Assembly: GCA_018000995.1 (NCBI GenBank)
Contig: JAGNIU010000004.1
Coordinates: 1 to 64,000, forward strand
Reading direction: 5' to 3'
Length of the DNA stretch: 64,000 nt
DNA from: Bacteroidia bacterium
GTDB taxonomy: Bacteria > Bacteroidota > Bacteroidia > B-17B0 > Aurantibacillaceae
Shown here: positions 6,763-10,525 of the stretch, piece by piece
Position numbering within the stretch: the first letter of the stretch is position 1
Layout: each line of letters begins with the position of its first letter
The notes under the pieces: model-generated
The model's database searches: none
The model's input: the letters and a program-made list of their open reading frames with translations, nothing else
What the model was told of the DNA's origin: nothing
Translations under genes and position numbers: made by a program

Positions 6763-6789
6763 CCCAACCTTTGGGTCAATTCAAACGTA
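6763..6789 (+). promoter_or_regulatory. Predicted ECF sigma promoter (autoregulatory)
   Basis: ACCC precedes AACCTTT (6766-6772), then 13 bases, then CGTA (6786-6789). The same -35/-10-like pair with the same 13-base spacing recurs at 10163-10186 and 10378-10401, and as AACCTTT-N13-CGTC at 40699-40722. AAC-containing -35 and CGT-containing -10 elements are typical of ECF sigma promoters. It lies 26 bp before the sigma gene. A 6-bp inverted repeat (ACCCAA/TTGGGT) overlaps the -35 region. Confidence 0.6.
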
Positions 6790-6815: not shown

Positions 6816-7382
6816 ATGGACGTTCAGCCTAAACTGATAAAGGATTGTATTAACCGTAACAGGAAGGCTGAGTATGAATTGTATAAAGTGACTTATAGTT
6901 ATTTAATGAGTATTTGCATCCGTTACACAAAAAATCAAGATCAGGCTAAAGAACAGCTTAACATGGGATTTCTTAAGATTTTAAATAATCTTGAGAAGTA
7001 TAGTGTTGAAGTGCCGTTTAAAGCCTGGATACGGAAAATCATGATTAACACGCTTATTGATGAATACCGTAAGCACAAAAAAAATAGTGAGGTGATTGAT
7101 TACGTTGAGGATTATTACGAAACCAGTAATTATTCTGAACAAAATATGGCTATTGATAAAATAAGTGTTGATCAAATTCACACCCTTATTGCAAAATTAC
7201 CGCCAATGGCACAACAAGTGTTTAACATGTTTGTTATTGATGGTTATTCACACAAAGAAATTGGAGAGTTTTTAAATATTGAAGAGGGCACTTCAAAATG
7301 GCACTTAAATTCTGCCCGCCAGAAGTTAAAAGAAATGTTAGAAAAATTAGTAACCCCCGCAACACTACAACACCATGGTTGA
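6816..7382 (+). CDS. ECF-family RNA polymerase sigma factor
   Basis: 188 residues. Sigma region 2 spans about 22-90, with YLMSICIRYTKNQDQAKE and FKAWIRKIMINTLIDEYRK (the '-10' recognition helix region). Region 4 spans about 125-178, with LPPMAQQVFNMFVIDGYSHKEIGEFLNI followed by GTSKWHLNSARQKLKEML, a clear helix-turn-helix for the -35 element. There is no region 1 or 3, as expected for an extracytoplasmic-function sigma factor. It overlaps the next gene by 8 bp, so sigma and membrane partner are translationally coupled. A candidate self-recognised promoter lies just upstream. The signal sensed is unknown. Confidence 0.92.
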   Translation: MDVQPKLIKDCINRNRKAEYELYKVTYSYLMSICIRYTKNQDQAKEQLNMGFLKILNNLEKYSVEVPFKAWIRKIMINTLIDEYRKHKKNSEVIDYVEDYYETSNYSEQNMAIDKISVDQIHTLIAKLPPMAQQVFNMFVIDGYSHKEIGEFLNIEEGTSKWHLNSARQKLKEMLEKLVTPATLQHHG

Positions 7383-8967
7383 TTTTGACAAATTTGAAAA
7401 GAATGTAAAGAGTAAGTACGGCAATCAAGAGTTCCCTTTTGATGAACAGAATTGGGAGAAAGCCGCTAAAATGATAGATGCTTCGCGTCAGGGTAAAAAC
7501 CGAGGCGGCATCTTCTTATTATCGGCCGTAGCCTTATTGTGTACCACCGGTTTGGTTTACTACTTTGGTTTTAGTGATAACAAAGCTCTAGAAAAAAATA
7601 ATTTGGCAGCAAATCAAGTTGTTGCTGCTAACGAAAATGTAGTAGCTAATAATGAAACAGGTTCTTTAAATGAAACTTCAACTGCCAATACTGATAACGT
7701 AAATAGTAATTCTAACACATCTGCAACTAATTCAACTGAAACTACAAACGAATTAGCAAAAACTAATTCTTCAAACCTGAAATCAAATTCAAATACTAAA
7801 ACATCCTTAAACTCTAAAAAATCTACAGCTGTTGTTACAACTGAAAAAGCAATTGCCGAAAACAATACAAACCAAACTATTGAAAACAACTCTGAAGAAA
7901 AAACAGCAACCACTTCTTCTAACTCAGATATAAAATCAAACACTCCTAATTCTCAATCTCAAAAATCAACACAGACTAAATCAACTTCAGAAACTTCAAG
8001 TTCAAATGTTTTAGGTAATAATTCAACTGCTCAAAATACTGCGAAGCCTTCTTCAACAATTCCTAATACAACCGCAACAGAAAGCGGTAACACAAATAAA
8101 CTAGGAGAAAGTGAAAATACAGAAGAAAACACAACTGCTGAAACTTCAACTAAAAATAATCCAACAGTTACAGATTCTTCAACTGCAATTGTTGTAGCTA
8201 CAGTTAAACCAACAAAAACTGCTGTTGTAGATTCTGTTCCGCCAATGCGTAAATCAAGAGCCGATTCACTTGCTGCAATGCTACCTAAAGGTGATGGCGT
8301 TTCTTATGCTACTAATGTTAAAGAAAAACACAACGCTAAAAATATTTTATTTATGGAAGCCGGCGCCACTTATTTATTAGGTTGGAACGGTGGCGGAAAA
8401 AATGAAGCAGGCGGTTTTAATTTATTAGCCGGTATCAATTTCCAACATTATTTTTCAAATACTATCTCAGCACAAATTGGAGCACAATATAGTACCATTA
8501 GTAATTTAACTAATACCTCACACACCATCAGCACTGTAAAATATGATTTTGGTATGGAACAGGATGTTACTGCTATTAAATATCAAAAATTACATTACCT
8601 GGTTGCGCCTATTAAAGTGGTGTTTAATGTGGGCGACAAAAACTTTATTGGAGTTGGATGTAACGTAGGCTATTTATTAAACAGCGATAGTAAAAAAGAA
8701 AATTATAAAACAAACAGTAACGATCCTAACGCCACTAAAAACGGATTAACATCAACTAAAGAATCGGGTTATGTGCAAGGATTTAATCCTTTTGATATTC
8801 AAGTGTCTGCTTCTTACCGACGTAAACTTTATAAAGGTTTAAGTGCAAATGCTGAATTTATTTATGGTTTAACCGATACAAAAAACAACGACTTCTTTAA
8901 ATCAAATAATTTTGACAGAACTGTTGGTTTTAAACTGACATTGTGTTACGATTTATTTAAAAAGTAA
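7375..8967 (+). CDS. Predicted trans-envelope anti-sigma / outer-membrane beta-barrel protein
   Basis: 530 residues in four parts. Residues 1-43 are a charged cytosolic segment with the FPFDEQNWEKAAKMID pattern seen in products encoded after Bacteroidota ECF sigma genes. Residues 44-66 form one membrane helix (GGIFLLSAVALLCTTGLVYYF). Residues 70-300 are extremely rich in Asn, Ser, Thr, Glu and Lys and look disordered. Residues 316-530 look like an outer-membrane barrel (PorT-like): alternating strands with aromatic residues, ending in LTLCYDLFKK. Overlap with the sigma gene suggests the N-terminus binds the sigma factor. One chain could then link the cytosol to the outer membrane. The sigma interaction is inferred from position and architecture; no anti-sigma zinc motif is present. 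Confidence 0.65.
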   Translation: MVDFDKFEKNVKSKYGNQEFPFDEQNWEKAAKMIDASRQGKNRGGIFLLSAVALLCTTGLVYYFGFSDNKALEKNNLAANQVVAANENVVANNETGSLNETSTANTDNVNSNSNTSATNSTETTNELAKTNSSNLKSNSNTKTSLNSKKSTAVVTTEKAIAENNTNQTIENNSEEKTATTSSNSDIKSNTPNSQSQKSTQTKSTSETSSSNVLGNNSTAQNTAKPSSTIPNTTATESGNTNKLGESENTEENTTAETSTKNNPTVTDSSTAIVVATVKPTKTAVVDSVPPMRKSRADSLAAMLPKGDGVSYATNVKEKHNAKNILFMEAGATYLLGWNGGGKNEAGGFNLLAGINFQHYFSNTISAQIGAQYSTISNLTNTSHTISTVKYDFGMEQDVTAIKYQKLHYLVAPIKVVFNVGDKNFIGVGCNVGYLLNSDSKKENYKTNSNDPNATKNGLTSTKESGYVQGFNPFDIQVSASYRRKLYKGLSANAEFIYGLTDTKNNDFFKSNNFDRTVGFKLTLCYDLFKK

Positions 8968-9031: not shown

Positions 9032-10153
9032 ATGAAACAGTCACGTACCCTGATTATTGCCTTACTTACAGTTGGATTATTTAATGCCTGTAAAAAGAAA
9101 ACATTGCCTGAACCTGAAGAAGGAAATAATCCTCAGTTCTATTTTTCAGGAAAAGTAAATGGTACAGATATCAGATTAGATGCCGGAGTAAATGATTACT
9201 ATATGTATTCAGGTTATTCTCAAAATTCAACAACCAATGTTTATGGTTTTTCTGCGACTTTAAAGCAGGGTTCTTGTACAACTTGTAATAACAGTATTAA
9301 AATTGAAATTAACGATCACCGCTATAGTACTTATAACGGACCTTCAGGAATCGATTCAGCTTTTATGTCAACCTATTATCCTTTTTGCGAGGGCACTTGG
9401 GCTCCGGTTGAACACAAACTAACTTTTTATCCATTATTTAATAATACAGCTCAAAGTTATCTTTGGGATTTTGGTGATGGAAACACCTCTTCCCTATTTA
9501 GTCCTTCGCACACTTACCGTAACTCGGGCGAATATAAAGTGAGTTTAACTGTTGTAGATAATTTCTCTTGTTCAAATACAGTAAATAATATTCAGAAAGT
9601 TGGATTTGAAGGCATTTATTGCAATACAACTATTACTGTAACTTCTACATCTACATTAAACGCAACCTTTACCCATTCAACAATTGGTACACCACCTTAT
9701 AATTTTTATTGGGATTTAGGAGATGGTAATTTTTCGACTGCCACTGCCCCATCTCACACTTATGCCTCACAAGGCAGATATCCTGTTTCTTTAAAAGTTA
9801 TTGATGCTGCTAATGATACCGCAAAAGCTAATTTTAATTATGTTACTAATGCCAGTAATATTTGTACCACTAACTATTTAGTACTAAAAGATAGCGCCTT
9901 AGCAAATAATTTAGGCGTATCCAATATTATAATAAAATGGACTGATGCCGGTGGTACAGAATATACTTCTAATAGTGTTTTACAGCCATCTACATCTTAC
10001 TTTAAGATTATTTCAGCATCTGATTATCATACCAACGAGTCCGGACAAAAAACAAAGAAACTGCACGTGAAATTTAAGTGTAATGTGTACAACGGCACAG
10101 CAAGTTTACCAATTGATAATGGTGAAGCTGTTGTTGTGGTCGCTTATAAATAA
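9032..10153 (+). CDS. PKD-domain lipoprotein
   Basis: 373 residues. The signal MKQSRTLIIALLTVGLFNAC ends in lipidated Cys20, followed by KKK. Two PKD domains carry their hallmarks: YLWDFGDGNTSS with SHTYRNSGEYKVSLTV (about 140-182), and FYWDLGDGNFSTATAPSHTY (about 222-268). The N-terminal part has a Cys-x2-Cys (TCTTC) segment and the C-terminal part is beta-rich. PKD domains usually mediate protein or carbohydrate binding at the cell surface. It follows the sigma and barrel genes by 64 bp without its own recognisable promoter, so it probably belongs to the ECF operon. Its precise role is unknown. Confidence 0.85.
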   Translation: MKQSRTLIIALLTVGLFNACKKKTLPEPEEGNNPQFYFSGKVNGTDIRLDAGVNDYYMYSGYSQNSTTNVYGFSATLKQGSCTTCNNSIKIEINDHRYSTYNGPSGIDSAFMSTYYPFCEGTWAPVEHKLTFYPLFNNTAQSYLWDFGDGNTSSLFSPSHTYRNSGEYKVSLTVVDNFSCSNTVNNIQKVGFEGIYCNTTITVTSTSTLNATFTHSTIGTPPYNFYWDLGDGNFSTATAPSHTYASQGRYPVSLKVIDAANDTAKANFNYVTNASNICTTNYLVLKDSALANNLGVSNIIIKWTDAGGTEYTSNSVLQPSTSYFKIISASDYHTNESGQKTKKLHVKFKCNVYNGTASLPIDNGEAVVVVAYK

Positions 10154-10158
10154 CAATT

Positions 10159-10186
10159 ACCCAACCTTTTTAAAAGGGAGACCGTA
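10159..10186 (+). promoter_or_regulatory. Predicted ECF sigma promoter for small RNA 1
   Basis: ACCC-AACCTTT (AACCTTT at 10163-10169), 13 bases, CGTA at 10183-10186. Spacing is identical to the promoter before the sigma gene. The downstream DNA has no gene but a strong terminator 50 bp later. Confidence 0.55.
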
Positions 10187-10192
10187 ATAGTT

Positions 10193-10267
10193 GATAAGGT
10201 AAATAAAACGCTTGTTTAGCAATAAACACGCAGAAAAAAGCAGCTTTTGGGATGGAGCTGCTTTTTT
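10193..10267 (+). ncRNA. Predicted ECF-dependent small RNA 1 (about 75 nt)
   Basis: Expected start about 7 nt after the CGTA box; end at the terminator stem-loop at 10234-10267. No credible reading frame is present. The 5' end (TAGTTGATAAGG) and the 3' hairpin resemble those of small RNA 2, including an identical TTTGGGATGG loop. The transcript boundaries are inferred, not observed. Confidence 0.5.
10234..10267 (+). terminator. Terminator of small RNA 1
   Basis: A 12-bp perfect stem (AAAAAAGCAGCT with AGCTGCTTTTTT) around TTTGGGATGG. The A-run and T-run flanks make it able to work in both directions. Confidence 0.85.
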
Positions 10268-10274
10268 CGTTTGG

Positions 10275-10373: not shown

Positions 10374-10401
10374 ACCCAACCTTTCCATTTTAGCCTCCGT
10401 A
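10374..10401 (+). promoter_or_regulatory. Predicted ECF sigma promoter for small RNA 2
   Basis: ACCC-AACCTTT (AACCTTT at 10378-10384), 13 bases, CGTA at 10398-10401: the third exact-spacing copy of this motif within 3.7 kb. Confidence 0.55.
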
Positions 10402-10407
10402 TAGTTA

Positions 10408-10518
10408 TCTAAGGAAGTCCTTACTTCGAATCATAATATAGCTTAACAATAAAAAACGAGGTAAGTTTTGTTAGTTTGTTTTGTAAAAAAGCTGCCTTTG
10501 GGATGGGGCGGCTTTTTT
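10408..10518 (+). ncRNA. Predicted ECF-dependent small RNA 2 (about 110 nt)
   Basis: Runs from just after the CGTA box to the terminator at 10485-10518. It shares the 5' element (TAGTTATCTAAGG), an internal AACAATAAAAAACG-like stretch and the terminator loop with small RNA 1, so the two look like diverged duplicates. A GGAAGTCCTTACTTCG segment (10413 onward) can fold on itself. No gene is apparent. Boundaries are inferred. Confidence 0.5.
10485..10518 (+). terminator. Terminator of small RNA 2
   Basis: Stem AAAAAAGCTGCC with GGCGGCTTTTTT (one G-T wobble) around the same TTTGGGATGG loop as the terminator at 10234-10267, then TATTT. Confidence 0.85.
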
Positions 10519-10525
10519 ATTTCGC

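Follow-up and report, generated by a model that had tools for sequence, protein, structure and literature searches.

The closest described counterparts of the locus analysed here are the Dma (dual membrane-spanning anti-sigma) proteins of Bacteroides thetaiotaomicron, presented in papers of 2024 and 2026 (2026: PMC13088901). In these proteins, a sigma-binding domain at the N-terminus is followed by a membrane helix, a long disordered tether and, at the C-terminus, a barrel; their genes adjoin ECF21 sigma genes (PMC13088901). Dma1/Das1 and Dma2 (BT_1558)/Das2 (BT_1559) have been described; the dma2 operon has three genes, including a DUF4943 gene, and the hypervesiculation of the B. thetaiotaomicron dma deletions (Dma1, Dma2) depends on the cognate sigma (PMC13088901). 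Another system of reference is FecR/TonB-dependent receptor signalling. There, as proposed here, an ECF sigma factor responds to an event at an outer-membrane barrel, but the signal runs through two proteins that touch in the periplasm and not within one chain.

Our results indicate with good confidence that the locus encodes a Dma-type single-chain envelope sensor, whose freed sigma would drive its own operon, two small RNAs and a small outer-membrane protein (OMP). The locus lies on the forward strand of a window of 64,000 nucleotides, which is the whole stretch of DNA that was analysed. Its first gene (6816..7382) encodes an ECF sigma factor of 188 aa, in which Pfam recognises the Sigma70 r2 and r4_2 domains (PF04542 and PF08281, both over cut-off); the ECF model TIGR02985 scored 74.1 bits, below its cut-off of 126.4. 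The second gene (7375..8967) encodes the 530 aa Dma-type anti-sigma factor, as judged from the open reading frame, the AlphaFold2 model and a comparison of barrel profiles. This frame lies exactly at the coordinates given in the earlier note, and it shares 8 nt with that of the sigma, the overlap claimed there. The third gene (9032..10153) encodes a 373 aa PKD-domain lipoprotein (PF18911, two stretches), the proposed partner of the sensor. Ahead of the sigma gene, at 6763..6789, stands CCCAAC-N17-CGTA, the predicted ECF-type promoter of this operon.

The sequence or the model establishes the anatomy of the anti-sigma protein, in which a short N-terminal module is followed by a single membrane helix, a disordered tether and an outer-membrane-type barrel. 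In the full-length AlphaFold2 model, built on an alignment of 24 homologues, helices are predicted at residues 4-15, 24-38 and 44-65, residues 65-319 nearly all have a pLDDT <50 (isolated residues excepted), and barrel strands run across 322-529 with a pLDDT of about 80-95. Residues 1-44 (7375..7506) form the proposed cytosolic sigma-binding module, which carries an invariant W27 and a basic stretch ahead of the membrane helix. By the positive-inside rule, basic residues just ahead of the helix fit a cytosolic N-terminus. The membrane helix itself is assigned to residues 45-65 (7507..7569); the single helix noted earlier was recovered both in the model, at 44-65, and as a hydropathy peak at 45-64. 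Residues 66-318 (7570..8328) make up the disordered tether, in which 49% of the residues are T, N or S, only 2 are aromatic and Cys is absent. The disorder previously proposed for this linker agrees with its low pLDDT; its length had been given as about 230 residues and is 253. Note that the NCBIfam matches of the anti-sigma protein (TopJ, YSIRK lipase, RecX) were discarded, being far below cut-off and mostly within the low-complexity linker.

The C-terminal part, residues 319-530 (8329..8964), is predicted to be an eight-stranded outer-membrane barrel. PF13568 (OMP_b-brl_2) was found on this region with 31.6 bits against a cut-off of 27, and comparison of the last 210 residues using Foldseek and VIA-align gave NspA (Z 16.1), OmpA, OmpW and OprF. 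Since the model, the structure matches and PF13568 agree with the description in the earlier note, including its C-terminal beta-barrel, we consider that description to be right. Pfam detected neither a FecR domain nor a TonB-dependent receptor in the anti-sigma protein or in its operon partner, and the barrel is small, with eight strands; a FecR relay was thus ruled out for this locus.

Searches of Bacteroidia genomes recovered 82 distinct homologues with a barrel and the same layout, and because the architecture recurs in so many distinct proteins it is not a product of chance. The sigma gene is directly upstream in 81 of the 82, mostly overlapping, a recurrence that also rules out a chance adjacency of the two genes. 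A homologue of the PKD lipoprotein is found directly downstream in 74 of the 82 loci, with a lipobox-like site in 73 of these 74. The Dma design is thereby extended to many families of uncultured Bacteroidota. A search of contigs with a closer subset of the alignment returned 9 named loci, all from uncultured Bacteroidota; two of the nine bear the label Sphingobacteriaceae.

The tether is kept in all these homologues, with lengths of 130-353 residues (median 200), and the shortest, of 130 residues, would have a contour of about 47 nm. Thus, of the conservation expected for the linker, its presence holds and it never falls below 130 residues; its sequence and exact length are not conserved. These data bear on the possibility that the protein is a precursor, in which the tether is processed to leave an ordinary inner-membrane anti-sigma and a barrel that works as a separate OMP, as in two-part relays. 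A long, exposed and disordered linker would indeed be an easy target for proteases, and the tether could be cut by a protease in the normal life of the protein. However, a single open frame runs across the 82 homologues, always with a linker of at least 130 residues, and the linker contained no conserved motif suggestive of a processing site. We therefore regard the cleaved precursor as unlikely, and favour the continuous chain of the Dma-type sensor.

Conservation of the N-terminal segment FDEQNWEKA, which the earlier note had proposed to examine, centres on its tryptophan: all 36 of the N-termini aligned have W27, those of two Bacteroides-type Dma proteins among them. When the N-terminal module was used alone as a query, 31 of the 40 matches sampled had no detectable barrel of this family, and all 40, which comprise several C-terminal types, had a sigma gene directly upstream. 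The sigma-linked module is therefore also carried on other C-termini and, since the sigma gene adjoins it in 40/40 cases whatever the C-terminus, the module is the constant partner of the sigma. As a separate observation, the N-terminal motif appears duplicated ahead of the membrane helix in L011 (minus strand), and perhaps also in L019 and L021.

The binding of the sigma by residues 1-44 was also modelled. For this, the alignment was restricted to in-frame read-through sigma/anti-sigma pairs plus sigma rows, and the sigma and module of a homologue were folded as a single chain with AlphaFold. The model reached a pTM of 0.43, with a pLDDT of about 61-82 in the module, and had no confident interface. 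For this reason, the sigma-binding step is here drawn from the genetic association and from the relationship to Dma1 and Dma2, which together suggest that residues 1-44 bind the sigma. The outcome of the modelling would also suit a module that does not bind the sigma at all, with the two genes adjoining for some other reason, for example because the sigma controls an outer-membrane protein. The constant adjacency of module and sigma gene in the 40 sampled proteins, across several C-terminal types, argues against this, as does the fact that the dma deletion phenotype of B. thetaiotaomicron needs the sigma (PMC13088901), and we consider such an explanation highly improbable.

Some of the variant C-termini deserve mention. 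In L114, L189, L191 and L197, the module and membrane helix lead into two PKD domains plus a CHU_C type IX secretion signal domain. These variants adjoin a sigma gene and, in two loci (context L145, L146), large proteins with similar C-termini come next; a secretion-linked variant of this signalling is possible. In the source genome, other sigma genes also precede genes for proteins that have a membrane helix close to the N-terminus and no evident barrel (G000:C69:78905, L134; G000:C4:7745, L137).

The relationship with the Dma family was analysed at the level of both proteins. A dma2-type operon was located, via its DUF4943 gene, in two genomes of one genus. We call these Bacteroides-like on account of the operon itself and of a second sigma/Dma-like pair that has a NigD-like gene as its neighbour (our own reading of the sequences). 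Profile comparison with hhalign related the barrel of the anti-sigma to the Dma2-type barrel with a probability of 96.8 and an E value of 2.5e-10. In the two Bacteroides-like genomes, the sigma profile gave its best score to the dma2-linked sigma (123.8 and 114.8 bits) and its next best to the other Dma-linked sigma (112.0 and 102.8 bits), with all others at or below 76.5 bits. This ranking lends indirect support to a place of the sigma described here in group ECF21. The barrel, the single helix, the disordered tether and the adjoining ECF sigma gene, all of them features of the Dma family, are found here together with the N-terminal module. As with Dma2, the operon has three genes, the barrels are related and the Dma-linked sigmas are the nearest to the one described here. 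In contrast, the third gene encodes a PKD lipoprotein and not a DUF4943 protein, and the anti-sigma has 530 aa, compared to about 355 aa for the Dma2-type proteins of the two Bacteroides-like genomes. Moreover, the lineage is outside Bacteroides, and the predicted promoter and adjoining candidate small RNAs have no mention in PMC13088901. The single-chain relay proposed in the earlier note is consequently supported by the architecture and by the published Dma model; its novelty as a type of relay is not, since Dma was already known. The novelty would lie in the lipoprotein partner, in the promoter and in the candidate small RNAs, each of them a prediction.

As regards the promoter, the small RNAs and the targets, all the statements made here are predictions. 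Upstream of the homologous sigma genes, the motif CAAC-N17-CGTA was present in 32 of 81 regions, compared to a mean of 0.2 in shuffled sequences and 0 in the control. The longer form, CCCAAC-N17-CGTA, has three exact copies in the window (at 6763, 10160 and 10375; 0.02 expected), and only five copies in the 3.6 Mb of the genome, three of which are these. The second (10160..10186) and third (10375..10401) copies, both on the forward strand and conserved in relatives, the second at the same place, lie behind the lipoprotein gene. In 13 of 71 loci, the shorter motif was found no more than 400 nt downstream of the lipoprotein gene (shuffled mean 0.3). Each of these two copies precedes a short predicted transcript with no usable ORF and with an intrinsic terminator. 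Candidate small RNA 1 (10193..10269, plus strand, ends approximate) has its terminator at 10233-10268, a fold z of -5.5 and its sole ATG inside the terminator loop, and is conserved in two relatives. Candidate small RNA 2 (10408..10519, plus strand, ends approximate) has a terminator at about 10484-10519 and a fold z of -3.3, and is conserved in three relatives. Both are conserved together with their promoters in relatives of the same genus, and an Rfam search with the two candidates gave matches below the family cut-offs only. Note that the terminator loop UUUGGGAUGG is common to both; it may be a pairing or protein-binding site.

The fourth copy of the motif stands ahead of a gene for an exported protein of 186 aa, a small OMP candidate (G000:C68:64725; L267:126-772), and gene and motif are also present in four relatives (L259, L261, L265 and L270). 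Its barrel fold is guessed from its length, its export signal and weak profile matches; it carries a His-rich stretch, AHHHEVGHHTYMHHP, and metal binding would likewise be a guess. The TTT extension is missing from the fifth copy (C34:126232), which may be due to chance. In two other loci, membrane micropeptides of 23-27 aa (MKKIIAIPFIIAFTIIALIIGFS, MKVLINNILKVTCIIAFTIIAFIIGFS) are encoded directly behind the promoter motif (L252, minus strand, 3792; L253, 1853).

Taken in order, the proposed mechanism would be as follows. Residues 1-44 would keep the sigma inactive at the inner membrane, while the tether would span the periplasm to a barrel in the outer membrane, probably accompanied there by the lipoprotein. 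The trigger could be the binding of a ligand or partner by the barrel, a disturbance of the barrel or a failure in its assembly, and the signal would travel down the chain as a pull, a change of conformation or a proteolytic event until the sigma is freed. The free sigma would then transcribe from CCCAAC-N17-CGTA its own operon, the two adjoining small RNAs and the small OMP. In its most specific form, with a sensor OMP that has a dedicated PKD lipoprotein and a sigma that drives its own operon, the two adjoining small RNAs and the small His-rich OMP, we put this circuit forward tentatively, at slightly less than an even chance. For the questions of what Dma proteins sense and of which genes their sigmas control outside Bacteroides, the locus supplies a conserved lipoprotein that may be what is sensed, a promoter motif from which targets can be predicted, and a candidate output in the form of two putative small RNAs.

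One alternative to the proposed mechanism concerns the trigger and not the architecture. The anti-sigma could be a sensor of assembly capacity, that is, a protein that itself depends on the barrel assembly machinery and whose periplasmic chain, if the barrel is not inserted, is degraded, releasing the sigma with no ligand involved. Having a barrel and a membrane anchor within one chain fits this idea, and the predicted targets (an outer-membrane protein candidate and two small RNAs) resemble those of sigma-E responses. However, it leaves the near-constant PKD lipoprotein unexplained, and the same N-terminal module is carried by other proteins with PKD and CHU_C domains in place of the barrel. 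We consider it a substantial possibility, though less likely than not.

The enterobacterial sigma-E response uses the MicA and RybB small RNAs. If our predictions hold, both systems would have an ECF sigma that responds to the outer membrane and has small RNAs and outer-membrane proteins as targets, and the Dma-type circuit, if true, would be a one-chain Bacteroidota counterpart of the sigma-E/RybB/MicA loop of outer-membrane homeostasis. They would differ in that the sensor here is one barrel-bearing chain, and in that the candidate small RNAs adjoin the sensor operon and belong to no Rfam family above cut-off. Within the Bacteroidota, Flavobacterium psychrophilum has an ECF-like CGT promoter class, SM6, that includes a sigma/anti-sigma operon and a putative regulatory RNA (PMC9723704). 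The shared ECF-like CGT box makes it a partial precedent for the promoter proposed here, although its targets are largely T9SS genes and the Dma architecture is not described there (PMC9723704).
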